From: Lactobacillus sp. CBA3606
Lineage (GTDB): Bacteria; Bacillota; Bacilli; Lactobacillales; Lactobacillaceae
Direction: 5' to 3'
Assembly: GCF_002970935.1 (NCBI RefSeq)
Contig: NZ_CP027194.1
Coordinates: 1,364,001 to 1,428,000 of the forward strand
Length of the DNA: 64,000 nt
This document shows, one piece after another, positions 21,118 to 63,940 of this stretch. The number at the start of each line of letters is the position of its first letter. The stretch's first letter is position 1. The notes beneath the pieces are model-generated. The model did no database searches. It saw only the letters and a program-made list of their open reading frames with translations, and had not been told where the DNA came from. The translations under genes and the position numbers were made by a program.

Positions 21118-22278
21118 TTAATTCGTGATTTTTTGCTTAGTTTTCGTCAGTGGTTGATCATGCTTGACTGGGAGATGCATCACAAAACTCGTTAATTCAT
21201 CATCACTCTGGGCATAAATGTAGCCACCATGGTGCGTAACAATGCTTTGGGCAATCGCTAAGCCGAGCCCTGAACCGCCCGTTGCTTTCGAACGTGATTC
21301 CTCGACCCGATAAAACCGTTCAAATAAAAGGCCTAAAGAATCGGCTGGAATCCGTTTACCATCATTAGTCACATGAATCACCACTTCTGGACCACGTTGT
21401 TCCGCTTGTAAAATAACTTTTTTAGCCCCATCACCGTATTTAAAAGCATTCGTAATCAAGTTATTAAAGACTCGTCCTAATTTTTCCGCATCCGCTTCCA
21501 GATAGATGGGCGCCGGCCCCGTTTCAACACTAATCGTTAATTGTTTCTTATTAGCTTCTAACTCAAAACTAGCCGCCAACTGTTCCAGCATCGCCGTTAG
21601 ATTCAACCGGCTAATATTTAATGGCGTTTCAGTCTGCCGAACCTTGGTGTACTCGAATAAATCTTCCACTAAGGACTTCATCTGCGTCGCTTTAGTATAG
21701 GCAATGTGCGTGTATTTTATCAGATCAGCTTCTGATTGATACTGGTGATTTTCAATCAAGCCGAGATACCCAATAATCGACGTTAACGGTGTGCGGATAT
21801 CATGACTCACATTGGTAATTAACGCATCTTTCGACCGTTCAATTTCTCGTTCTTCGTCCATCGAATGAATCGCCGAATCAACAAGCGCATTCACGCTTTC
21901 AACCACTCGTTGCGTATCACCAGTCAAATTAAAATTAATTCGGTGATCAAAATGGCCCGCAGCAATATAATGTAACTCACTGATAATATGCCGTAATTGC
22001 ATTTGTTTATAGCGCCGAATCAGCCGCCAATATAAGACAAATCCATCGGCAATGACCATTAAAGCAATGAATAGATTCTCATAGCTCCATAATTGATAAT
22101 TCGTCGGTCCGATTTTAATCGAGCGTTTTATCTGAAAAATCCCGCTCTGTAAGCCGGGATTATGCGCAATCGCACTATTAATCAACACCACAATTGACAA
22201 GTTTAAAAGGAGTAGCAAAATAACGGTCACTACTCCTTCAAAGAATAATTCACTTTTTTCACGTCCTGTTAATTTCAA
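21118..22278 (-). CDS. Sensor histidine kinase, VanS-like
   Basis: The 386-residue membrane kinase has TM1 at about 14-36 and TM2 at about 67-86, with only a short outer loop of some 30 residues. A HAMP-like linker is followed by the H-box ITNVSHDIRTPLTSIIGYLG (phospho-acceptor His159), N-box NNLITNAFKYGDG and G-box GGSGLGLAIAQSIV. The H-box surroundings resemble VanS and other cell-wall sensors. Start TTG with a GAGG site upstream, 15 bases after the response-regulator gene; dacA follows. Signal unknown; a cell-wall related stimulus is inferred from the neighbour. Confidence 0.9.
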   Translation of the reverse strand: MKLTGREKSELFFEGVVTVILLLLLNLSIVVLINSAIAHNPGLQSGIFQIKRSIKIGPTNYQLWSYENLFIALMVIADGFVLYWRLIRRYKQMQLRHIISELHYIAAGHFDHRINFNLTGDTQRVVESVNALVDSAIHSMDEEREIERSKDALITNVSHDIRTPLTSIIGYLGLIENHQYQSEADLIKYTHIAYTKATQMKSLVEDLFEYTKVRQTETPLNISRLNLTAMLEQLAASFELEANKKQLTISVETGPAPIYLEADAEKLGRVFNNLITNAFKYGDGAKKVILQAEQRGPEVVIHVTNDGKRIPADSLGLLFERFYRVEESRSKATGGSGLGLAIAQSIVTHHGGYIYAQSDDELTSFVMHLPVKHDQPLTKTKQKITN

Positions 22279-22293
22279 AAGTTAACCTCGCTC

Positions 22294-22983
22294 TTAACGT
22301 GATTCAATCTTATAACCAACGCCCCAGACAGTTTGAATGACTTTTTCTCCATCCGTTGCCTCTTCGATTTTATCGCGCAAATGACTCACATGGACCATGA
22401 CCGTTTTGGCGGACACGATACTCTCTTGTTGCCAAACCCGTTCAAAAATATCATCCGCTGAAAAGACCCGGTTAGGATGACTAGCCAAGAGATATAAAAT
22501 ACCAAATTCCAAGGCAGTTAACTGAATATCCTTGCCAGTCAGTGTCTTAACTTCGTGTGAATCTTTATTAATCGTCAACGGCCCAATGTCTAAAACATCC
22601 GGTTCATTAGTCGTCACATTATTTTCTGACCGTCGTAATAATGATTTGACCCGCGCCATAATTTCTAGCGGATTGAATGGCTTCGTCACATAATCATCGG
22701 CCCCGGTAATTAAGCCTTGAATTTTATCCATATCGCCGGTTTTAGCGGATAACACTAAGATGGGTAATTGGGAGTCTTTACGGACTTCTTTAATGACTTC
22801 AATCCCGTCCATTTCAGGCATCATAATATCCAAAATCATTAACGCAATGTCTGGATTCGTATTTAATTTCGTCAGGGCTTCTTTCCCGTTGTAAGCACTG
22901 ATTGGTTCATAACCTTCATTTTTGATATAAATCTCTAATAGTTGTGCAATTTCTTTATCGTCATCGACTACCAAAATTTTCAT
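22294..22983 (-). CDS. OmpR/PhoB-family response regulator
   Basis: 229 residues from the ATG at 22983; an ATG two codons earlier is too close to the RBS GAGGAGA. Receiver domain with acidic pocket VVDDD (7-9), phospho-acceptor Asp52 in MILDIMMP and Lys in TKPFNPLE, then a winged-helix DNA-binding domain ending VWGVGYKIESR. It forms an operon with the VanS-like kinase gene downstream, and probably dacA. Likely regulates cell-wall genes including dacA; this is inference from gene order. Confidence 0.92.
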   Translation of the reverse strand: MKILVVDDDKEIAQLLEIYIKNEGYEPISAYNGKEALTKLNTNPDIALMILDIMMPEMDGIEVIKEVRKDSQLPILVLSAKTGDMDKIQGLITGADDYVTKPFNPLEIMARVKSLLRRSENNVTTNEPDVLDIGPLTINKDSHEVKTLTGKDIQLTALEFGILYLLASHPNRVFSADDIFERVWQQESIVSAKTVMVHVSHLRDKIEEATDGEKVIQTVWGVGYKIESR

Positions 22984-23110
22984 ATTCATTTCTCCTCATA
23001 TTAATTCTATTTATATTCTACCAAAAAGTATTAATCAACGGGGTATTCAAGGTGCTATTTAGAGAAAACGCAAAGATTGTTCGGGTTAATCATTGACGCC
23101 GGCTACCATA

Positions 23111-54417: not shown

Positions 54418-54446
54418 TTGCAGTCAATATGGTTTGCAATTATAAT
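54418..54446 (+). promoter_or_regulatory. Promoter of sRNA-A
   Basis: TTGCAG (54418-54423), 17-bp spacing, TATAAT (54441-54446). A second TATAAT at 54511-54516 could start a shorter RNA. Confidence 0.65.
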
Positions 54447-54452
54447 AGTCGC

Positions 54453-54657
54453 AGATTGATAGAAAAGACTTTGTCGCTATCAATCATTAATATTCTTTAG
54501 TCTTTTAGATTATAATAGGCATTGCTGCCATAATGTCGATTATTAATCATTTTCATTCATAGACTCCCCCAAGTCTTATGAATGGGGTGCATCAAAGCCC
54601 CCACTTTGATGTTGCCTACTCCTTGACCACTACATCCCTGATGTGGTGGCTTTTTTG
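54453..54657 (+). ncRNA. Candidate small RNA A, C-rich-loop family
   Basis: About 205 nt (or 135 nt from the second -10). 5' hairpin GATTGATAG (54454-54462)/CTATCAATC (54477-54485); its loop AAAAGACT (54463-54470) can pair with AGTCTTTT (54499-54506), a possible pseudoknot. Then two hairpins with identical loops CCCCCA: 54554-54584 and 54590-54611. A single-stranded CTACTCCTT follows, then the terminator stem CCACTACATC/GATGTGGTGG (54627-54649) and six T. No open reading frame fits. The exposed C-rich loops and ACTCCTT are complementary to Shine-Dalgarno sequences, so it probably pairs with mRNA starts. Confidence 0.65.
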
Positions 54658-54736
54658 TGTGTCCAATATGGGTTAACTTGGGTTGGTGCATGATCTATGC
54701 GTTTATAAATCGTTCACCAATTCAACCTAACTGAAA

Positions 54737-55159
54737 TTAATCCTCTTCGACCGGCGAATTCGACCGACGATCTTGTAACCACGTTTTAGCTTGGACCAAG
54801 ACCCAGGCAATGCCAGCGGTAAAAAGTAACAACATCAGCGTCGATAAAATAATAACCACGATAATTTGTAGCCCTTCGGCTTTCAAAACATCTAACTTCG
54901 TCGCCAATGCAACCCCAGACGGAATAAAAATCAAACTGATAATTTGCACGAAGAAGTTACTAACGCCTTCAACCTGTTCTAGTTTAACCAGCTTAAACGT
55001 TAATAGACCGTATAACATAATCATCCCGATTAAAGCTGGTGGCATGGGGAAGTCCGGCCAGAGCTGGGCCATTAGTTCTGAAATCAAACTACTTGCTAAT
55101 AAAATTGCGCCATAAATCATAATTTGTCTAATAAACGACCATTTGTGTTTAGGTTTCAT
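54737..55159 (-). CDS. lrgA: LrgA/CidA-family holin-like protein
   Basis: 140 residues, four hydrophobic segments: IMIYGAILLASSLISELM, FPMPPALIGMIMLYGLLTFKLVKLEQVEGVSNFFVQIISLIFIPSGVALATKLDVLK (LrgA/CidA core), and a final helix VVIILSTLMLLLFTAGIAWVLVQ. Family members act in murein hydrolase control or, with LrgB, in export of pyruvate or similar organic acids. It lies 12 bases after the lrgB-like gene. The order is lrgB then lrgA, the reverse of the usual one. Confidence 0.85.
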   Translation of the reverse strand: MKPKHKWSFIRQIMIYGAILLASSLISELMAQLWPDFPMPPALIGMIMLYGLLTFKLVKLEQVEGVSNFFVQIISLIFIPSGVALATKLDVLKAEGLQIIVVIILSTLMLLLFTAGIAWVLVQAKTWLQDRRSNSPVEED

Positions 55160-55171
55160 TAAAAGTCCTCC

Positions 55172-55900
55172 TTAACCGAGACCGACTAACCGGGCAAAGA
55201 CTGGTACCATAAAGTTAACTAGTATTCCAGCAATCACAAAGGCAATCGCGCCAGTTGCGCCAGCAGCCTCACTAACTTCAATCGCTTTAGTTGCGCCAAC
55301 TGCATTGCCAGCAATTCCAAACCCTAAGCCGGCACCTAACGGGTTCTTATGTAACTTGAACCAACGAATAAAGTGGTCACCTAAAGCATAAATCAAGACT
55401 GAGTTTAGAATAACCGCAAATGCCGCAATGGCTTGGTCACCACCAACTGATTCCGCAACTGGTAAGGCAATCGCCGTTGTTGCAGCCTGAACTAACATGG
55501 CACCTAAGGCTTCATCCGTCAGATTGAGTGCGCGGGATACCCCATAAATTCCGAATAACGAGAACAATAGTCCTAAAAATAACGCTATTAAAATCACATC
55601 CCAATGCTTCTTAAAAATATCATTACGTTTATATAGAGGGACCGCAAATGAAACGGTGGCAGGCGCAACTAGCCAAAATAGCCAATCGCCGCCAATTTGA
55701 TAAGCCTGATAAACTTTGTGCAGCGGTGCTTGCAGGGCTGACGCAATCAATACCAGTAAACCAATCCCGAGTAACATTCCAAAGAACAATGGCTGGAATA
55801 AGACAAATCGATTCGTTTTATGATACAAATACTCGCCAATCCCATAAACTAACACGGTCAAACCGATGCCAAAGAATGGATTATTGAGAAGATAATTCAA
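55172..55900 (-). CDS. lrgB: LrgB/CidB-family membrane protein
   Basis: 242 residues with about six membrane segments. FSLFGIYGVSRALNLTDEALGAMLVQAATTAIALPVAESVGGDQAIAAFAVILNSVLIYALGDHF contains the conserved T-T-x-x-A-x-P LrgB core, followed by LHKNPLGAGLGFGIAGNAVGATKAIEVSEAAGATGAIAFVIAGILVNF. Works with LrgA. The start TTG at 55900 has only a weak RBS (GTTGGA). Transcription from the TATAAT boxes near 56020-56030 must pass a leader peptide gene and a terminator, so attenuation is likely. Confidence 0.85.
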   Translation of the reverse strand: MNYLLNNPFFGIGLTVLVYGIGEYLYHKTNRFVLFQPLFFGMLLGIGLLVLIASALQAPLHKVYQAYQIGGDWLFWLVAPATVSFAVPLYKRNDIFKKHWDVILIALFLGLLFSLFGIYGVSRALNLTDEALGAMLVQAATTAIALPVAESVGGDQAIAAFAVILNSVLIYALGDHFIRWFKLHKNPLGAGLGFGIAGNAVGATKAIEVSEAAGATGAIAFVIAGILVNFMVPVFARLVGLG

Positions 55901-55918
55901 ATAAGTTCCAACTTTCTT

Positions 55919-55975
55919 TTAGGGGGTGAAAGTGACAAAAAAGCGCCCCACTCCGGGTCTAGTCATCATTTGCAT
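55919..55975 (-). CDS. Leader peptide ORF upstream of lrgB, 18 aa
   Basis: ATG at 55975, stop at 55919. The peptide, MQMMTRPGVGRFFVTFTP, lies across the terminator-like hairpin, so its translation would cover one arm. I see no strong Shine-Dalgarno upstream (AACCACC only). A leader peptide is the simplest reading, and its amino acid content gives no obvious sensor. Confidence 0.4.
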   Translation of the reverse strand: MQMMTRPGVGRFFVTFTP

Positions 55976-56000
55976 GGTGGTTAGGCTCAGAGCAGTGCGC
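55937..56000 (-). terminator. Attenuator-like terminator in the lrgB leader
   Basis: GAGCAGTGCGC (55990-56000) pairs with GCGCCCCACTC (55943-55953), with one mismatch and two G-U pairs; six T follow on the minus strand (55942-55937). It lies 37 bases before the lrgB start and 20-30 bases downstream of TATAAT boxes. Confidence 0.6.
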
Positions 56001-56075
56001 TAACACGACTCCAAATATTATATACTTATTATAGCAAGCTATAGATTTAATTAATAGTATTTAGCCTCCGGCGGT

Positions 56076-56915
56076 TTAATCAACCACTTGAAACATCAAC
56101 GCATAGGCACCGGTACCCGTATGCGTCGCAATAATCGGACTCGTTCGGGCAACTAATAAATCTGCTTGTGGCGCTACTTTTTGCATCAAAGCCTGTGGGG
56201 CCTGCGCCACTGTTTCAGCACCGACATACGAGATACCGGCGGATTCAACCCGGCTAACATCCGCTAATTCCGCTAAAATCTGCGTTTGTGCTTTAATTAG
56301 TGCTTTTTTTCCACGTCCCCGCGTATACAGTTTTAGCTTGCCTTCAACCAATTCAAACACAAACTTTAATTTGATTAAATTAGTCACGACCCCTGCAATT
56401 TTGGGAACTCGACCACCCTTGACTAGGTTATCTAAGGTATCCACAAACAGATAAACGTGCGTCTGTTGTCGAATGACCGCAATCTTAGCCAGAATTGCAT
56501 TCAAATCAGCGCCCGCATGCGCCATGCGCGCAGCAGTCAATACTTGAAAGGCCATCCCCCGATCAGCGGACTGCGTATCAATAACCGTCACCTGGCCGGC
56601 CGCCAGCTTAGCAGCTTGACGCGCAGCATTCACGGTCCCACTTAAGGTTTCAGTGAGATGCAGTGACAACACTTGACTCCCATCCGCAGTCAACGCATTG
56701 TAGCACGTTACAAAATCACCGATTGGCGGTTGGCTAGTCGTTGGTAATTTCGGATTGGTCGTCATTTCACGATCAAAGTCAGCTCGTGAAACCGTGGTAT
56801 CAGCCACCAAATCACCATTAAAGCCCACCAGCAACGAAACAATGTTAATATCATATTGGTCAATTTCGGCCGCGGTTAATTGGACCGATGAATCAGTGAC
56901 GATTTTAATTGTCAT
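56076..56915 (-). CDS. DegV family fatty-acid-binding protein
   Basis: 279 residues from the ATG at 56915 (MTIKIVTDSSVQLTA); the frame runs 39 codons further but only the inner start gives a normal DegV. Motifs: IVTDSS, TTSQPPIGDF, SLHLTETLSGTVNAARQAAKLA, VIDTQSADRGMAFQV, FVDTLDNLVKGGRVPKIAG. DegV/FakB-type proteins bind fatty acids and hand them to the FakA kinase. Several paralogues are usual in lactobacilli. Single gene here. Confidence 0.9.
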   Translation of the reverse strand: MTIKIVTDSSVQLTAAEIDQYDINIVSLLVGFNGDLVADTTVSRADFDREMTTNPKLPTTSQPPIGDFVTCYNALTADGSQVLSLHLTETLSGTVNAARQAAKLAAGQVTVIDTQSADRGMAFQVLTAARMAHAGADLNAILAKIAVIRQQTHVYLFVDTLDNLVKGGRVPKIAGVVTNLIKLKFVFELVEGKLKLYTRGRGKKALIKAQTQILAELADVSRVESAGISYVGAETVAQAPQALMQKVAPQADLLVARTSPIIATHTGTGAYALMFQVVD

Positions 56916-57369
56916 AACAAGAACCACGCTTTCAACTAAGTTGGTTGCAATTATAGCATTCACATTTTCGTCACCTTTATGAAAGCTTACTACGACTGCC
57001 TTTTGCGGCATTGGCGGTATTAAATCGGTCACGATGTAGTTATAAAGTTTGTAAAATTAGGCTAAGTCGCCATGACTAAGTTGTTTTTTCAAAATGAGAT
57101 CACGTTTTTAGCCTTTAGCCGTCACACTTTCTTCAAGGAACGTGGCTATACTATGTTTATGGTCATTGAGGAACTCCCCATTCCTTAACGACAGCCCTAA
57201 ATTAAATTCAATTACCTCCCCAAGTAATGAATTTGTGTGTGTGTAACAACCTAACTTAATTTACTTCCCTTTTCCACCGTATTCCCCGATACGGTGGTTT
57301 TTTGTGTCACCGCTGGGTTATTCCAAAAAGACATCCGCCATAATCCAGCAGATGTCTTTTAGCCTTATT
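56916..57369. other. Intergenic region holding the DegV promoter side and sRNA-B
   Basis: Besides sRNA-B (57159-57304), the section 56920-57140 holds only A/T-rich sequence in which I see no gene. Confidence 0.5.
57159..57304 (+). ncRNA. Candidate small RNA B, C-rich-loop family
   Basis: -10 TATACT at 57147-57152, -35 unclear. Hairpin TTGAGGAA/TTCCTTAA (57166-57188) with loop CTCCCCA; hairpin 57205-57233 with loop CTCCCCAA; single-stranded ACTTCCC; terminator CCACCGTAT (57274-57282)/ATACGGTGG (57289-57297), loop TCCCCG, and T-run. The terminator stem and loop are identical to those of sRNA-C. No ORF fits. About 145 nt. Confidence 0.65.
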
Positions 57370-59724
57370 TTACTTAACTTGCTTTAAAGCATCCTTCACG
57401 GCCTCTTTAATCGCGCGACTCGAAGCCGAAGCCCCGGAAATCGCATCAACATCGGTGGAATTCGCCGCAACCATTGCTTTTGGTAATTGATCAACCGCTA
57501 TTAAACCAACATCTTCGCTTTCATGATGTTGCATAACCTCTACCTTTTCTAGCTGATGATGCCGATAAGTGACGCGCACCACGACCTTGCCACCAAGCCC
57601 ACTATTGGAACTACCTAGATATTGATCAGTCCCTAAATCAATCTTAGTCGTCTGCTCAATAGCCACAATATCATTAATGCCATTAACATCATTGGCCCTA
57701 ACGTCATCAGCATCATCTTTAGCAGCTGCTGCATTTTCACCAGCTAGTTTTCCAAAGATGAGGCATTCAGCTAAGTTACCACCACCTTGATAGCAATTAG
57801 CCACAATCCCACCTAGTTCACCGGCACCAAACAAATGTGGAATGGGATTATTATTAATATCTAGAATTTGGGCCGCTTCATTGCGTTCTGGTCCGCCTTG
57901 CGTGTTTAAAACGTCATTAGCAACCGCAATGGCATAATAGGGGCCGTCATCAAAACAACGCATGCTTGCCGAATCTCGTCCAAATTCATAATCTTGACCT
58001 AAGCGCTTAAACTGATTAAAGCTTGCCACTGTACTTTCAAGCTTGGCAGTTGGCACAGCTAATTTTTCGGCTAATTGCGCTAGTGAAGCTGCCGAAACTA
58101 ACTTCTGCATGAATTCTGGATAAGGCAACTGACCCTTTTGTGCTAGTTCTTGCTTGAACTCATCGTATTGCGTTTGATCAAACACTAAATACGGATGCTG
58201 ATTTTTCATCGGAATTAACCAAGAACCATGCATCTTAATATGCCCATGACGATGTGGTGCATCCTCTGGAAAATAACGCGTCCCGTCATCAGCAATCACT
58301 AGAATACTGCCTTGCTTCAACTTAGGCCATTCTAGCTGACGACCACGTTCATTATCAGCTTCCTTAAAAGTTAATCCGGGCAGAATACCATGTGACTCAT
58401 AATTAGTCATATGCCACATCTTAGCGCCAACTGCTTGCGCCATTTTGATGCCATCACCACGATTGAATAAGGTCCCTAGTGGGGTTAATCGTTGACTGTG
58501 CAAATAGGTTTGAACTAGTTCTGGATTATTTTCAAACCCACCCATGGCTAAAACAACCCCATTTTTGGCATGCACATTGCACAATTGACCTTGCCGTTTA
58601 ATCTGGACACCACGAACAATTCCAGTACCAGGGTCTTGAATCAAAGATTGTGCCCGTGAGTCTAGCCAAACATCAATCTGATCGGCTCGGTCTAATACCT
58701 TTTGTCGCAGGAGTTTCCATAAACCAGCATCTTTATCACGCTTATGGACTAGTGCAAAATCAACGGTTTGACTTCCCTTTAGTTCTGGATATTCGGCCAT
58801 CGTTTTTTTTATTGCGACAGCATCCCCAGGTTTAATATCGTGTTTCCAGCTAACTGCCGGAATGCCCAAGTATTGCTTGAAATACTCGGGCATTTGATGC
58901 ATCCCCGATAAATAAGCCTGTAATGTCTTTTCTGGCATCGCAAACGGCGCATTTAACGCATGATAATAATCAGTTAAATCAGTCAAGCTGTCACCCATTA
59001 CGACGTGTTGCGCTGAATAACGGGTATTACCACCTTCACGCCCATATGGCGCCGCCTCAACTACCAACACATGCGCGCCATTATCGGCTGCAAACCGGGC
59101 TGCAGAGGCCCCAGCCCCGCCAAATCCTAATACAATCACATCATAATTTCCTTGCCACTTAACGGTTAAAGCCGGGCCGTTAATTTGAGATTTTACGAGT
59201 TGTGTAAAATTGGCAAAACACCTTTCCAAAAAATTAACCGTATGTGGATCAACTAAACTGCCTTGTTCATTAAACGCCTTTGGTGCAAAGCTTAACATGA
59301 ATTCATTACCGGGCAGTACAGTTGCCCCAACTCCTGGTGCATTCAAAATCAACCGTAATTCATCTTGTGCGCGCGAGGTGCCTTGAATCCCCAATGAAGT
59401 TCCCACAATCATGAGTGGCTTCCCCACAAATGGGTGGACACGGTATGATAACCATTCAATCACACTTTTAAGTGCTGCCGGCACGGCATGGTCATATTCT
59501 GGAACACCAATGATGACACCATCGGCTACTTGAATTTGATCAGCTAACGTTTTTACTGACGCTGGTAATTCAACAGTTGCATTACATTCTTTAAACAATG
59601 GTATTTGATCAATCTCTGCAATCTGCATCGTGACATTTTCACTAAAGTGCTGCTTCATATACTGTAATAAGTCTCGATTATAAGATTTTTCAGCATTGGT
59701 CCCAACGATTGCAACTAATTTCAT
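57370..59724 (-). CDS. Three-domain flavoprotein: FMN reductase, fumarate-reductase-type FAD domain, FMN-binding domain
   Basis: 784 residues. Residues 1-180 form an NADPH-dependent FMN reductase (GTNAEKSYNRDLLQYM, VIIGVPEYDHAVPAALKSVIEWLSY). Residues about 190-670 are a FAD_binding_2 (flavocytochrome c/fumarate or urocanate reductase) domain with the dinucleotide loop VIVLGFGGAGASAARFAADNGAHVLVVEAAPYGREGGNTRYS and NTQGGPERNEAAQ. The last 85 residues form an FMN_bind domain with VDAISGASASS, in the place where ApbE links FMN to Thr or Ser; here the residue is Ser. A fused NAD(P)H:acceptor reductase is the likely role; acceptor may be fumarate or an acrylate. No signal peptide, so cytosolic. 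A Rex-like sequence lies at 59770-59787. Confidence 0.85.
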   Translation of the reverse strand: MKLVAIVGTNAEKSYNRDLLQYMKQHFSENVTMQIAEIDQIPLFKECNATVELPASVKTLADQIQVADGVIIGVPEYDHAVPAALKSVIEWLSYRVHPFVGKPLMIVGTSLGIQGTSRAQDELRLILNAPGVGATVLPGNEFMLSFAPKAFNEQGSLVDPHTVNFLERCFANFTQLVKSQINGPALTVKWQGNYDVIVLGFGGAGASAARFAADNGAHVLVVEAAPYGREGGNTRYSAQHVVMGDSLTDLTDYYHALNAPFAMPEKTLQAYLSGMHQMPEYFKQYLGIPAVSWKHDIKPGDAVAIKKTMAEYPELKGSQTVDFALVHKRDKDAGLWKLLRQKVLDRADQIDVWLDSRAQSLIQDPGTGIVRGVQIKRQGQLCNVHAKNGVVLAMGGFENNPELVQTYLHSQRLTPLGTLFNRGDGIKMAQAVGAKMWHMTNYESHGILPGLTFKEADNERGRQLEWPKLKQGSILVIADDGTRYFPEDAPHRHGHIKMHGSWLIPMKNQHPYLVFDQTQYDEFKQELAQKGQLPYPEFMQKLVSAASLAQLAEKLAVPTAKLESTVASFNQFKRLGQDYEFGRDSASMRCFDDGPYYAIAVANDVLNTQGGPERNEAAQILDINNNPIPHLFGAGELGGIVANCYQGGGNLAECLIFGKLAGENAAAAKDDADDVRANDVNGINDIVAIEQTTKIDLGTDQYLGSSNSGLGGKVVVRVTYRHHQLEKVEVMQHHESEDVGLIAVDQLPKAMVAANSTDVDAISGASASSRAIKEAVKDALKQVK

Positions 59725-59769
59725 AACTAACAGTCCCTTTTATTTTTAATTGTGAAAATTCAAAAAGTA

Positions 59770-59787
59770 TCGTGTGGTTGTTCACAA
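59770..59787 (-). promoter_or_regulatory. Rex-like sequence upstream of the flavoprotein gene
   Basis: TCGTG-N8-TTCACAA resembles the Rex operator TTGTGAA-N4-TTCACAA; the right half is perfect, the left half has two mismatches. It lies in the spacer of a weak minus-strand promoter. Confidence 0.3.
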
Positions 59788-60107
59788 GGCCAATATACGC
59801 ACTTTTAAAAAAAAGACAATGTTAGCATTCAGAAAAATCAGCTGGAAGCCTGCTATCATCGGCTAAACGGCGTACTACTTTTTATATTTAGCCAATAATT
59901 AGGCTAGGTCGCACTCATTTTTGCCGAAAAAATAGTTTGACTTTCATAAATAAAATTAATGATTATCACTTTAAAATCTGCTGATAGCCTAGTTATTTCA
60001 TCCACTGATTGACTTGTTAGTCGTGTTTGCTCTGATACAATTCCCTACAGTGGTACCTTTTAAGGCGCTATTTAACCTATTCGTGTCATTCGCTAAAAAA
60101 TAGCACG

Positions 60108-60135
60108 TTGACAATTCAAAAATAAAAGTTATGCT
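60108..60135 (+). promoter_or_regulatory. Promoter of the DASS carrier gene
   Basis: TTGACA (60108-60113), 16-bp spacing, TATGCT (60130-60135); the leader to the ATG is about 130 nt. Confidence 0.65.
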
Positions 60136-60271
60136 ACGGATGAAGATTTAGGAAGTTACTAGTTTAACTAATCATGTGATGTTTTTTTCAATGGTGATGG
60201 TTGCACCATTGATAGTCACGCCTATCATCATCTTTTTTGCAATCAGTGAATCATATAAAGGGGTACCCATT

Positions 60272-61687
60272 ATGACTAATAAAATTAATTGGAAAGCTTT
60301 TATTTTACCCTTAGTACTGGGGATTGGACTTTGGTTACTCACACCAGTTAAGCCTGCAGCGATTAGTCCAACTGCCTGGCATCTATTCGCTATCTTCGTT
60401 GCTACTATCATTGCCTGTGTGACTAAACCGTTACCAATGATGGCGACCACCTTAATCGGTATCACGGTCGCCACGCTAACTGGCATTTTCACTATGGACG
60501 AGGTCACCGCCGGATTTGGCAATTCCACCGCTTGGATGGTTGCCATGTGTATGTTTATGGCAGCTGGCTTTATTAAGTCCGGCTTAGGCAAAAGAATTGC
60601 TTACTTATTTGTCAAATTATTTGGTAAACACACTTTAGGGTTAGCCTATGCTTTGTCTGCGGTCGATACCGTCTTAGCAATTGGTATCCCCAGCAATAAT
60701 GCTCGGGTCAACGGCATTATGTATCCGATTATTGATAACCTTTCTCATGAAATGGGTTCCGATCCCAAGCAAGGAACGCAACGTAAATTAGGGTCATTTC
60801 TAATTTTTAACGAATATGAAATTAATAACGTTACTTCTGGGCTATTTTTAACCGGCTTAGCAGGCAACATGGTGGCCTTAGGACTGGCAAAAACCCAAGG
60901 CATCACAATTTCTTGGTTGCAGTGGTTTACTGCGGCCAGTGTACCAGGACTGATTTCACTATTGGTCATTCCTTTCATCCTATATAAAGTTTATCCGCCT
61001 GAGATTAAAGCAACCCCGAATGCACGTGTTTGGGCAGATAAACGCCTTAATGAACTTGGCAAAATGGCCATCAGTGAAAAAATCATGTTACTCACTTTCT
61101 TACTTGCGATTATTTTATGGTTGGTCGGCACAAGTATCGGTATCGATGCGACGACAGTTAGCTTTATTGCCGTAGTCATCTTGTTACTTACTGGGGTCAT
61201 CACAACTAAAGACCTATTAAATGAAAGTTTCGCCTGGAATATTCTAGTTTGGCTATCCATCATTATGTTGATGTCAAAAAAATTAATGACGCTCGGCTTC
61301 TTCCCTTGGTTCTCAAGTACATTAGGCCATTCACTCCATGGCATGAATTGGATTCTAGTTCTAATTATTTTATTCTTGGCTTACTTCTATTTACATTACA
61401 TGTTTCCCAGTGTTTCAACCCAGATTTCAGCCCTCTATGCTGGTTTTCTTTCAGTAGCCATTGGTGCTGGCGTCCCCACTACTTTGGCTGCCCTAATGTT
61501 AGCCTTTTGTGGTTCTATCTATTTATCAACAACACCATACTCTGCTGGCCCGGCAGCCTTGCTTTCCGGTACCGGCTATGTGACCAATAAAGAATGGTGG
61601 CAATTAAGTGCACTCATCGGACTTGTCTTCAATATCATTTGGCTGGGAGGCGGCCTACTGTGGACTAAGGTGCTTGGCCTTTGGTGA
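60272..61687 (+). CDS. DASS-family anion (di/tricarboxylate) transporter
   Basis: 471 residues from the ATG at 60272, about 9 bases after AAAGGGG; the frame upstream to 60176 has no RBS and lies in the leader. About 12 membrane segments; the SNT-like motif IGIPSNNARVNGIMYPI and the C-terminal VGAGVPTTLAALMLAFCGSIYLSTTPYSAGPAALLSGTGY are DASS (CitT/2-oxoglutarate-malate) signatures. It could supply fumarate, malate or a related acid to the flavoprotein reductase encoded divergently; that pairing is inference. Confidence 0.88.
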   Translation: MTNKINWKAFILPLVLGIGLWLLTPVKPAAISPTAWHLFAIFVATIIACVTKPLPMMATTLIGITVATLTGIFTMDEVTAGFGNSTAWMVAMCMFMAAGFIKSGLGKRIAYLFVKLFGKHTLGLAYALSAVDTVLAIGIPSNNARVNGIMYPIIDNLSHEMGSDPKQGTQRKLGSFLIFNEYEINNVTSGLFLTGLAGNMVALGLAKTQGITISWLQWFTAASVPGLISLLVIPFILYKVYPPEIKATPNARVWADKRLNELGKMAISEKIMLLTFLLAIILWLVGTSIGIDATTVSFIAVVILLLTGVITTKDLLNESFAWNILVWLSIIMLMSKKLMTLGFFPWFSSTLGHSLHGMNWILVLIILFLAYFYLHYMFPSVSTQISALYAGFLSVAIGAGVPTTLAALMLAFCGSIYLSTTPYSAGPAALLSGTGYVTNKEWWQLSALIGLVFNIIWLGGGLLWTKVLGLW

Positions 61688-61726
61688 GCCCTACCATTAT
61701 TTAAAAATCACGTTGCCAGCTCTAAT

Positions 61727-61759
61727 TAAACTAATTTACGTTATACTTAAATTAGTTTA
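61727..61759 (+). promoter_or_regulatory. Perfect inverted repeat around the -10 box of the LysR gene
   Basis: TAAACTAATTT (61727-61737) and AAATTAGTTTA (61749-61759), 11-bp arms, flank TATACT (61742-61747). Likely autoregulatory operator. Confidence 0.55.
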
Positions 61760-61773
61760 AAGGGAGGCTTTTT

Positions 61774-62661
61774 ATGAACGAGCGTGATTTAAAATACTTT
61801 TGTAGCTTAGTCGAAACTGGTAATTACACTGCGACTGCTAAACAATTTCAGGTAACGCAACCGGCGATTTCAGTTGCACTCAAACGACTTGAGACCAAAT
61901 ATGCCACTAAACTATTAACCCAGTCTAATCACCGGGCACGCTTAGTTACCACCTCAGCTGGACAGGTTTTATATATTAAAGCTCGTCACCTAATTAAAGA
62001 ATTTACCCAGATTGAATTAGAAGTGCAACATGCTGGTGATCAAAAAGTTAGACTTGGCTTTTCACATATTGCTGGCGGGATTTGGCTACCGCGCGTCATT
62101 GAAACCTTCGCCCACCATCACTTATTGGCCTCTGTCACGACAGAAGTTGCCATTTCTGAACAACTACTCGAACAGTTGCGTCATCATAAGTTAGATGCCG
62201 CTATTTTTTCAACACTACAGCCAATGCAATCAGATGACTTGCAAGTATTTCAATTAGAAACCCACCCTTTATGTGTACTGGCTAACATTCAGCAACCAAT
62301 CAGTCGCTTACAGATGGTTGAAGCAACTGACTTACAACAGTTGCCCATCATTGCCCGTTTACCACATTCACTACCAAGAACAGCGTTAACTCGCTATTGT
62401 AGTCGTAGTAACGTTCGACCAAAAATCATCTATGAAGCTCATTCTAATCAGCTAGTTGAAAGCTTAGTTGCTCGCAATTTAGGCATCGGTTTTGTCATTA
62501 ACGGGTCCGTTGCTTTGAGCCCCAATGTTGTTAAGATTCCACTCAAGCCTAGTCAATCAATTGATTGCTACATGCAACTGGCGGTTCGAAAATCCTTCCT
62601 ACCAAACGCTTATCAAACCCGTTGCATTGACTTGCTAAAAGAAATTAAGGTTCAAGAGTAA
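61774..62661 (+). CDS. LysR-family transcriptional regulator
   Basis: 295 residues. HTH MNERDLKYFCSLVETGNYTATAKQFQVTQPAISVALKRLETKYATKLLT, then effector domain (KVRLGFSHIAGGIWLPRVIETFA). It lies 86 bases after the DASS carrier on the same strand, RBS AAAGGGAGG. Probably controls the carrier and the divergent flavoprotein reductase, with a carboxylate as effector; this is inference from gene order. Its terminator resembles that of sRNA-B and sRNA-C. Confidence 0.9.
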   Translation: MNERDLKYFCSLVETGNYTATAKQFQVTQPAISVALKRLETKYATKLLTQSNHRARLVTTSAGQVLYIKARHLIKEFTQIELEVQHAGDQKVRLGFSHIAGGIWLPRVIETFAHHHLLASVTTEVAISEQLLEQLRHHKLDAAIFSTLQPMQSDDLQVFQLETHPLCVLANIQQPISRLQMVEATDLQQLPIIARLPHSLPRTALTRYCSRSNVRPKIIYEAHSNQLVESLVARNLGIGFVINGSVALSPNVVKIPLKPSQSIDCYMQLAVRKSFLPNAYQTRCIDLLKEIKVQE

Positions 62662-62675
62662 TTGACTGCCCTTTG

Positions 62676-62705
62676 CCACTGTATTCCCCACTACGGTGGT
62701 TTTTT
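62676..62705 (+). terminator. Terminator of the LysR gene with a CCCC loop
   Basis: CCACTGTA (62676-62683)/TACGGTGG (62692-62699), loop with TTCCCC, then six T; it is a variant of the sRNA-B/C terminator. Confidence 0.85.
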
Positions 62706-62796
62706 GTGCACTGGCTAGCAACTAGTCCCCCTAGGCAAAGTTAGTCATATCTGCTAAACTAGCTCTTAATATTTAACCATTAAGGAAGACTTACAC

Positions 62797-63495
62797 GTGT
62801 TTTACTCACTATTTGATCCAACCTATTTTTTGGTCATCATTGGTTTAATCATCTCAATGGCCGCTTCAAGCTATATCAATCGGACTTTCAAACACTACGA
62901 TACCTATCGAAGTCAATCTAATACGACGGGAACTGCAGCGGCGCAGTTTATTTTGACCCAAACGGGGATTAACGACGTGGGCGTTCAAGCCATCAGTGGC
63001 GATTTAACCGACAACTATAATGGACAAACTAAAGTCCTTAGTCTGTCCGCTTCAACAGCACAATCCACGTCGGTCGCCGCCATCGGGGTCGCTGCGCATG
63101 AATGTGGTCACGCTGTACAAGATCACGTGAACTACTGGCCTATGCGGCTCCGAACAGCCCTCGTTCCAGCAGCCAACCTCGGGTCAACGCTATCTTTACC
63201 CATTATTATTGTGGGGGTCTTACTCAGTTACAATCAGACCTTAATTCATATTGGCATTTTGCTATTCTCATTAGCCTTACTATTTCAACTCGTGACTTTA
63301 CCCGTTGAATTCAATGCTTCTAGCCGCGCCTTAAAGATTTTAGCGAGTGGCGGCGTTCTGACGCCGGCAGAAGTTCCGCTAGTCCGCAAAGTGCTTATCG
63401 CCGCAGCATTAACTTACGTGGCGGCTGCGTTAGCCACTTTCTTACAGTTGCTGCGACTAATCATCCTATTTGGCGGTAATCGCGACAATGATTAG
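62797..63495 (+). CDS. YugP-like zinc metallopeptidase (Zn_peptidase_2)
   Basis: 232 residues, start GTG with AAGGAAG upstream. N-terminal membrane segment, then SISGDLTDNYNGQTKVLSLSASTAQSTSVAAIGVAAHECGHAVQDH with the HExxH zinc site, and a later PVEFNASSRALKIL whose Glu is the third ligand in this family. Three C-terminal membrane segments. Neutral zinc metallopeptidase of unknown substrate, membrane bound. The tandem sRNA-C and sRNA-D follow. Confidence 0.88.
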   Translation: MFYSLFDPTYFLVIIGLIISMAASSYINRTFKHYDTYRSQSNTTGTAAAQFILTQTGINDVGVQAISGDLTDNYNGQTKVLSLSASTAQSTSVAAIGVAAHECGHAVQDHVNYWPMRLRTALVPAANLGSTLSLPIIIVGVLLSYNQTLIHIGILLFSLALLFQLVTLPVEFNASSRALKILASGGVLTPAEVPLVRKVLIAAALTYVAAALATFLQLLRLIILFGGNRDND

Positions 63496-63531
63496 GGGCT
63501 TAATAAAGGCTTAGTGAATTCTTCACCACAT

Positions 63532-63583
63532 CGGCTGGATTCGTTCACATATTCTTCACACCGGCTCGGTATGATAGTATCAT
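63532..63583 (+). promoter_or_regulatory. TTCACA direct repeats and promoter of sRNA-C
   Basis: TTCACC (63532-63537), TTCACA (63544-63549), TTCACA (63555-63560) recur every 11-12 bases, the style of a Pho box. The last can be a -35 with TATCAT (63578-63583) at 17-bp spacing; TATGAT (63570-63575) is an alternative -10. Confidence 0.4.
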
Positions 63584-63588
63584 AGCAA

Positions 63589-63737
63589 TTGAGGAACAAC
63601 CTCAACTAGCTACAACACAACCTAAAATTTTTCATTTACTCCTCCAAAGTAATGAAATTCATAGTAACATGCGACCCCCCATCGCATGTTTACCCTACTC
63701 CTTTTTCCACCGTATTCCCCGATACGGTGGTTTTTTG
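63589..63737 (+). ncRNA. Candidate small RNA C, C-rich-loop family
   Basis: 5' hairpin TTGAGG/CCTCAA (63589-63605); hairpin 63630-63657 with loop CCTCCAA (63641-63647); hairpin AACATGCGA/TCGCATGTT (63666-63690) with loop CCCCCCA; single-stranded CCCTACTCCTTTTT; terminator CCACCGTAT (63707-63715)/ATACGGTGG (63722-63730), loop TCCCCG, then six T. About 148 nt, no ORF. Its CCTCC loop is the exact complement of GGAGG. Confidence 0.68.
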
Positions 63738-63767
63738 ATGCTAAATCATTGCCCTTTGAGCAAGCTA

Positions 63768-63797
63768 TTTACTTTTTATGCCATAAATCGTTATACT
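63768..63797 (+). promoter_or_regulatory. Promoter of sRNA-D
   Basis: TTTACT (63768-63773), 18-bp spacing, TATACT (63792-63797). Confidence 0.5.
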
Positions 63798-63803
63798 GGT
63801 AGC

Positions 63804-63940
63804 ATGGTAGTTGAATTTGTCACTCAACTGCTATACCTTTTCATTTACTCCTCCAAAGTTAATGAAAATAGTCTTGTTAGGTCCTCCAACCTAACAAAAT
63901 GAACACTCCTTTTGCCGTCGCGTAAAGCGATGGTTTTTTA
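63804..63940 (+). ncRNA. Candidate small RNA D, C-rich-loop family
   Basis: 5' hairpin AGTTGA/TCAACT (63809-63829); hairpin 63838-63868 with loop CCTCCAA, in which 21 bases (loop and both flanks) are the same as in sRNA-C; hairpin TTGTTAGG/CCTAACAA (63874-63897) with loop TCCTCCAA; single-stranded ACACTCCTTTT; terminator CCGTCGC (63915-63921)/GCGATGG (63927-63933) and six T. About 136 nt, no ORF. Confidence 0.68.

Follow-up and report, generated by a model that had tools for sequence, protein, structure and literature searches.

Staphylococcal RsaE and Bacillus RoxS pair with start regions through a single-stranded, C-rich motif. The Listeria LhrC family comprises LhrC1-5, Rli22 and Rli33-1 (Rfam RF00616). 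According to PMC4132741, LhrC1-5 require LisR, and LhrC4 contacts lapB by CUCCC sites located in two loops and in one single-stranded stretch, the stem of loop A opening to cover positions -2 to +7 of the lapB mRNA. We describe here a set of C-rich small RNAs (sRNAs) in Lactobacillus sp. CBA3606, four of which (U1-U4) lie in the window, a stretch of 64,000 nucleotides (positions 1364001-1428000 of the 2.56-Mb genome, G000:C1), and two of which (U5 and U6) lie elsewhere in the genome. It is likely that they form at least six paralogous, trans-acting, LhrC-like sRNAs that block translation and are probably induced by envelope stress; their transcription, regulator and targets we infer from the DNA.

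In PMC4132741 and PMC5880928, LhrC is a multicopy family with a CU-rich loop on a hairpin stem that pairs with the start codon, a CU-rich single-stranded stretch and a CU-rich terminator loop, and it is controlled by a two-component system; for the present set, such control is predicted from a promoter box. As in LhrC, three redundant CU-rich sites are found in U3 (loop CCUCCAA, the single-stranded CCCUACUCCUUUUU and terminator loop CCCC), and siblings are numerous: six in this genome and, for a covariance model built from 21 U3 sequences (R1), 4 to 11 matches per Lactiplantibacillus genome at E <= 0.1, with U5 sometimes counted twice. The set differs from LhrC in its loop, which is CUCCUCC instead of CUCCC, and in the additional hairpins P1 and P3; U5 has a further, nearly invariant hairpin. 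The CiaR-dependent csRNAs of streptococci are likewise multicopy, with complementarity to the Shine-Dalgarno (SD) sequence and AUG and an N5 direct repeat at the promoter (PMC3091779), but their SD complementarity lies unpaired between two stem-loops, whereas here it lies in loops as well. Finally, the model of Ref84 (Enterococcus, RF02846) and R1 find one and the same place in one locus (L298).

Structure and conservation of the C-rich units

In the window, U1-U4 lie on the plus strand between genes, in agreement with the list of open reading frames (ORFs). Promoter-like elements, terminators and near-invariant C-rich unpaired sites can be read directly in these intergenic units, as can a conserved structure, with compensating changes counted for U3, U4 and a cross-genus set. 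Against 200 dinucleotide shuffles each, none of which folded as well, the fold z-scores are -5.6 for U1 (54453-54657), -3.75 for U2 (57159-57304) and -7.2 for both U3 (63589-63737) and U4 (63804-63940). By these z-scores, the terminators and the ORF list, the four intergenic units proposed in an earlier note on this DNA are real, and their loops and single-stranded CU stretches read in the sequence as it had them; its count of four was too low. A fifth copy, U5 (G000:C1:1943172-1943408, minus strand; z -8.2), was found by a whole-genome DNA search with U3 (63560-63740), and a sixth C-rich sRNA, U6 (G000:C1:214136-214278, plus strand; z -4.4), by a pattern search for the promoter repeat. The family in this genome has at least six members: at E <= 0.1, R1 returns U1-U6 and one weak match (E 0.04), which is only the terminator behind a LysR gene. 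This terminator (62659-62708 of the window) shares 88% identity over 50 nt with the U2 3' end; it may be a degenerate sRNA copy that was taken over as the terminator of a gene, or a donor of such ends.

U3, U5 and U6 are each present in all 21 Lactiplantibacillus genomes (for U6, 20 retrieved copies and the own one), and 18 U4 orthologs out of these genomes were aligned. Folded singly, the 39 aligned U3 and U4 sequences have, as judged by eye, a common plan of P1, P2, P3 and terminator, with P1 re-paired in some of them and a different terminator in some U4 copies. Double changes occur in 7 of the 41 pairs of U3 (shuffled mean 2.4), and its P2 pairs show no variation across 19 distinct rows. 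In U4 they occur in 11 of 39 pairs (shuffled mean 7.2; reached by 3 of 500 shuffles), and 9 of the 11 P2 pairs are invariant. Therefore, P1, P3 and the terminator are preserved as structures and P2 nearly letter for letter, stem included. The covariance search in relatives that the earlier note had set beforehand as its refuting test thus found compensating changes, in U3, in U4 and in the cross-genus alignment described below. The same changes bear out its picture of stems that vary; of the loops it had described as staying C-rich, only that of P2 does so in the 18 U4 orthologs, and the second loop varies. U6 is preserved over nearly its whole length in all 21 genomes, together with its box TTCACANNNTCTTCACA and a TATAAT-like -10, the terminator loop excepted. 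The extra hairpin of U5, GGCATGTGAACGTCCCCCCGCTTATATGAATAAACG, has single changes in 3 of 21 genomes and is otherwise invariant.

This pattern bears on the idea that the units are copies of a repeat or mobile element that has terminator hairpins and has spread without function. Such an element would fit the varying number of R1 matches per genome and the close spacing of copies in genomes G003 and G005; we consider it very unlikely, given that all 21 species have U3, U5 and U6, that compensating changes were counted in U3 and U4, and that the unpaired sites are frozen.

The closely spaced copies lie in two loci, L238 (G003:C17:43500-61000), with 8 R1 matches, one of them apparently only a LysR-type terminator, and L239 (G005:C77:26000-36500), with 7. 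Each contains four U2-type copies, some only ~0.4 kb apart, and in view of this spacing the U2-type cluster is taken to be a site of sRNA gene duplication.

The window units, all on the plus strand, elaborate the common plan in different ways. U1 (54453-54657, defined by fold, terminator and R1 match) consists of a 5' hairpin, an upstream hairpin, P2 (~54554-54584, loop CCCCCA), P3 (~54585-54616, loop GCCCCCA), the stretch UACUCCUUG and a terminator (54627-54649); R1 matches it at 54508-54655 with 36 bits (E 7.6e-7). U2 (57158-57304, by fold and R1 match) has P1, P2 (57203-57235, loop CTCCCCA), a single-stranded UACUUCCCUUUU and a terminator (57274-57297), and its R1 match covers 57158-57303 (58 bits, E 2e-12). 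U3 (63581-63737) has P1 from 63583, P2 at 63630-63657 (UUUUCAUUUACUCCUCCAAAGUAAUGAAA), P3 at 63664-63693 (loop CCCCCCA), its single-stranded stretch at 63694-63706 and its terminator at 63707-63730. U4 (63803-63940) is built of P1 (63804-63834), P2 (63838-63868) with the same loop as that of U3, P3 (63874-63897, loop CCUCCA), a single-stranded ACACUCCUUUU and a terminator (63914-63934).

Structured units with terminators could also be riboswitch-like leaders or attenuators of downstream genes. We give this almost no credence: U1 and U2 face genes on the opposite strand and U3 is followed by U4, an argument that holds for U1-U3; each unit has a promoter-like element of its own, and none has an Rfam match.

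Complementarity to translation start regions

The arm and loop of P2, UUUUCAUUUACUCCUCCAAAGU, are complementary to ACUUUGGAGGAGUAAAUGAAAA, which reads as an ideal ribosome-binding site followed by a start codon and by AAA as the second codon, so that the complementarity spans an ordered GGAGG-N5-AUG-AAA. The earlier note had claimed complementarity of the loops to GGAGG; that of P2 is stronger, since it also takes in the start codon and the second codon. If the units act as LhrC-like sRNAs, the loops CUCCUCC and CUCCCC and the single-stranded ACUCCUUUU would contact the Shine-Dalgarno sequence of target mRNAs, after which the P2 stem would open and its 5' arm UUUUCAU would cover the start codon, blocking the 30S subunit. 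Such an LhrC-type mode, in which the loop contacts the SD and the stem covers the start, would explain why both the stem and the loop of P2 are frozen. With several sites that are redundant and several copies, repression would then be broad and dose-dependent and would most plausibly fall on exported or membrane proteins.

Predicted binding to 57 crude start regions of the window was compared with that to coding windows, using 60 shuffled loops as control; as the starts were picked partly by SD, the test shows fit, not targets. For the P2 loop and for the single-stranded UACUCCUUUU, binding to start regions exceeds that to coding windows, with none of the 60 shuffles as good, and the same is true of the U6 P2 loop and the U2 loop; for the U1 loop, 1 of 60 shuffles is as good. 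Base pairing to ribosome-binding sites, named in the earlier note as the simplest role, is supported at the level of these predictions.

Both UACUCCUUUU and CUCCUCC resemble the anti-SD of 16S rRNA, and the loops might instead be decoys that mimic the 16S rRNA 3' end and titrate either a protein, for instance a cold-shock protein, or a G-rich RNA, for instance another sRNA, for which they would be a sponge. The presence of several redundant copies fits titration, and the lack of change in the stem and loop of P2 would be compatible with a protein site as well. We nevertheless regard decoys as unlikely, since the ordered SD-spacer-AUG-AAA complementarity of P2 would be superfluous for them and the similar LhrC acts on mRNAs (PMC4132741).

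The same P2 complementarity means that the opposite strand reads ACTTTGGAGGAGTAAATGAAA, a perfect ribosome-binding site followed by ATG-AAA, as expected if each unit were the antisense partner in a type I toxin-antitoxin pair. In U5 this strand even opens a hydrophobic frame of 54 amino acids, MKRMLIVIVV... (L003 1515-1680, plus strand). However, this candidate toxin frame was rejected, being 54 amino acids long in 1 of 21 genomes and at most 37 in the other 20, with 16 in 15. The opposite frames of U3 and U4 are under 10 codons in the own genome (by eye), and it is the plus strand that bears the terminators and covarying hairpins; a toxin-antitoxin role is thus highly improbable.

Target prediction, which the earlier note had proposed, yielded little where long unique targets were sought. 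For P2, the search gave 10 sites with at most 3 mismatches and its reversed control 2; three of those 10 are the antisense of the sRNAs themselves. Outside the family, the best site (2 mismatches) coincides with the start region of a gene for a DUF998 membrane protein. For the U6 P2, 7 sites (one of them U6) against 5 in the control represent no excess. For the extra hairpin of U5 there were 4 sites against 0, one being U5 itself and another a DUF1093 secreted protein. The DUF1093 gene (G000:C1:921037-921426, L310) has an unusual GGGGGA Shine-Dalgarno sequence, which could pair with this hairpin, and GGGGG is preserved in the start regions of 18 of the 19 orthologs inspected. By a loose rule, GGGGG also precedes possible starts in 7 of the 57 window genes, and for this reason the DUF1093 gene is not claimed as a target; the DUF998 and DUF1093 proteins are exploratory candidates.

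Distribution and relation to LhrC and Ref84

At E <= 0.01, R1 has matches in 161 of 378 genomes of the family (19 of 40 genera, the 21 Lactiplantibacillus genomes included) and in 94 of 395 genomes of the order (25 of 80 genera, in five families besides the own one); the two genome sets share family members, and about 4 chance matches are expected per search if the rough E-values are right. A structure-fitted cross-genus alignment of 36 matches from 25 loci has double changes in 37 of 41 pairs and a covariation score of 0.566, compared with 0.147 when shuffled and at most 0.095 when slid, although the alignment is biased towards structure by construction and its loci were chosen by hand. R1 was also run on 80 named loci, each of up to ~20 kb. 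L. garii has 4 strong matches and L. fabifermentans 7, and Enterococcus ureilyticus has a weak one (E 0.0023). Elsewhere among the named lactobacillus loci nothing fell below E 4, and no clostridial locus had a match better than E 0.5. In a protein search, Lactiplantibacillus garii and L. fabifermentans are the closest named relatives of the present genome; their R1 scores are identical to those of G006 and G005 in the genus that was searched, which identifies this genus as Lactiplantibacillus.

Searched against Rfam 15, the window contains no family at the gathering threshold, RsaE/RoxS included, which sets these two apart from the present set, and eight further loci (L003, L006, L238, L239, L189, L190, L191 and L254) gave nothing relevant at E up to 0.1. 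U3 of the window scores 24.1 bits (E 4.2) with the LhrC model and 28.3 bits with that of Ref84, far short of their gathering thresholds of 110 and 52 bits. Since the window RNAs fail the LhrC cut-off, we place the set as a new branch and not as LhrC itself; it is LhrC-like and probably related, with convergence as the alternative. The earlier note knew of no description of the family, in agreement with the Rfam result and with the open-licence literature, where no conserved stress sRNA family of such kind in lactobacilli is reported among the matches listed. A term search in the Enterococcus transcript paper PMC7724050 gave no match, and none of the open-licence papers listed for the word Ref84 deals with an sRNA, judged by title.

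The comparison with LhrC, an analogy in the earlier note, gains some support from 20 stretches around R1 matches in other families, 18 of which have no Rfam match at threshold. In one of the remaining two (L290, genome G537), the LhrC model passes its cut-off of 110 bits twice, with 111.2 and 110.7 bits, and finds further copies at 90.8 and 72.9 bits; R1 gives these four copies, in this order, 12.7, 33.3, 36.9 bits and no match, so that two or three of the four are common to both models. In the other (L298, genome G599), the Ref84 model passes with 86.1 bits (cut-off 52) at the place of an R1 match of 31.3 bits.

We advance only tentatively the wider idea that LhrC of Listeria, Ref84 of Enterococcus and the present set are branches of an ancient, order-wide sRNA regulon with one regulator and the box TTCACA-N5-TTCACA, in which duplicated RNA copies of the anti-SD of the ribosome itself would, when the envelope is under stress, serve as a general translation brake on exported proteins. 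A single stress-control system may thus be common to the whole order. If our reading is right, LhrC would be one branch of an order-wide family and not a peculiarity of Listeria, and lactobacilli, which are widely used food and gut bacteria, would gain a ready-made post-transcriptional stress system, for which the box and the R1 model are a means to find regulator and targets in harmless laboratory strains.

The copies of genus g16 (L254, L256, L257 and L196) have a longer P2 loop, ACTCCTCCTCCCC; the anti-SD site can therefore expand.

Promoter box and candidate regulator

The direct repeat TTCACA-N5-TTCACA around -35 is exact in U3 and U6, and U2 and U5 have a near-form of it (9 of 12 positions each). 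In U3 it reads TTCACA-TATTC-TTCACA, with an 11-bp phase (63544-63560, plus strand, followed by a -10 TATGAT at 63570-63575), and is preserved with small changes across the genus. The U2 box, GTCACA-CTTTC-TTCAAG (57121-57137, plus strand), is also at -35 and precedes a -10 TATACT at 57147-57152; U2-type copies of relatives have a GTCAYACTTTCTTCA-like box. Further half-sites in 11-bp phase lie upstream of both U3 and U2, that of U2 being TTCAAA-N5-ATCACG (57088-57104, plus strand), 33 bp above the next box, and TTCAAA..ATCAC-like stretches are also found upstream of several U2-type copies in relatives. The promoters of U2, U3, U5 and U6 read (T/G)(T/C)CACA-N5-TTCA (by eye), which differs from the CiaR box of the csRNAs, TTTAAG-N5-TTTAAG (PMC3091779).

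U1 has a plain sigma-A type promoter, TTGCAG, 17 nt, TATAAT (54418-54446, plus strand). Its -10 at 54441 and start region, GCAATTATAATAGTCGCAGATTGATAG, are preserved in 9 of the 9 genomes inspected, in favour of the 5' end at 54453 given by the earlier note. An alternative start near 54517 (TATAAT at 54511; R1 match from 54508) was rejected, as its -10 is not preserved in most relatives inspected. U4 has a -10 TATACT (63792-63797, plus strand) and neither a U1-type promoter nor a TTCACA box, the best form in its upstream region having 7 of 12 positions.

On both strands of the genome, the exact repeat has three copies: those of U3 and U6 and a third ~100 bp upstream of prsA (PPIase, that is peptidyl-prolyl isomerase, domains found). 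A match to TCACANNNTCTTCACA, mostly near -37, was found in 28 of 35 loci from other genera and families (L189-L197 and L253-L278, all used; p <= 0.05 against simple 2-mer shuffles), several of which come from one genus and are not independent. This similarity of boxes in distant relatives suggests a single response regulator common to them. We propose that under envelope or secretion stress the box is bound by a response regulator of the OmpR type, perhaps one similar to CovR, ArlR or LisR, which would switch on most of the set, U1 and U4 being driven otherwise.

Several results speak against stress-induced, translation-blocking sRNAs, in addition to the choice of starts in the pairing test. 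Neither U1 nor U4 has the box. The prsA box, as read in this genome, is oriented opposite to the gene. Once one mismatch is allowed, the box outnumbers its reversed control only slightly (14 versus 10), so only the exact form is informative. The box was not found in the retrieved surroundings of any of the seven OmpR-type regulators of the genome. In the pairing test, the P3 loop, the U6 P3 loop, the single-stranded site of U2 and the extra loop of U5 do no better than shuffles of their own base composition (15 to 18 of 60 as good), and the searches for long unique targets yielded little. Finally, 217 of the 378 family genomes are without an R1 match.

No LisR site was found in the available part of PMC6305404. 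Only one of the seven OmpR-type regulators, YycF, reaches an NCBIfam cut-off (best 25 models each). For another, at G000:C1:293771, ArlR and the CovR DNA-binding domain are among the solved regulators matched; this one may be the LisR/CovR counterpart. Within the window, the gene of a VanR-like response regulator (22294-22989) adjoins a sensor kinase gene (21118-22278); its best NCBIfam models, at 260 bits and below their cut-offs of 460 and 350, are VanR families.

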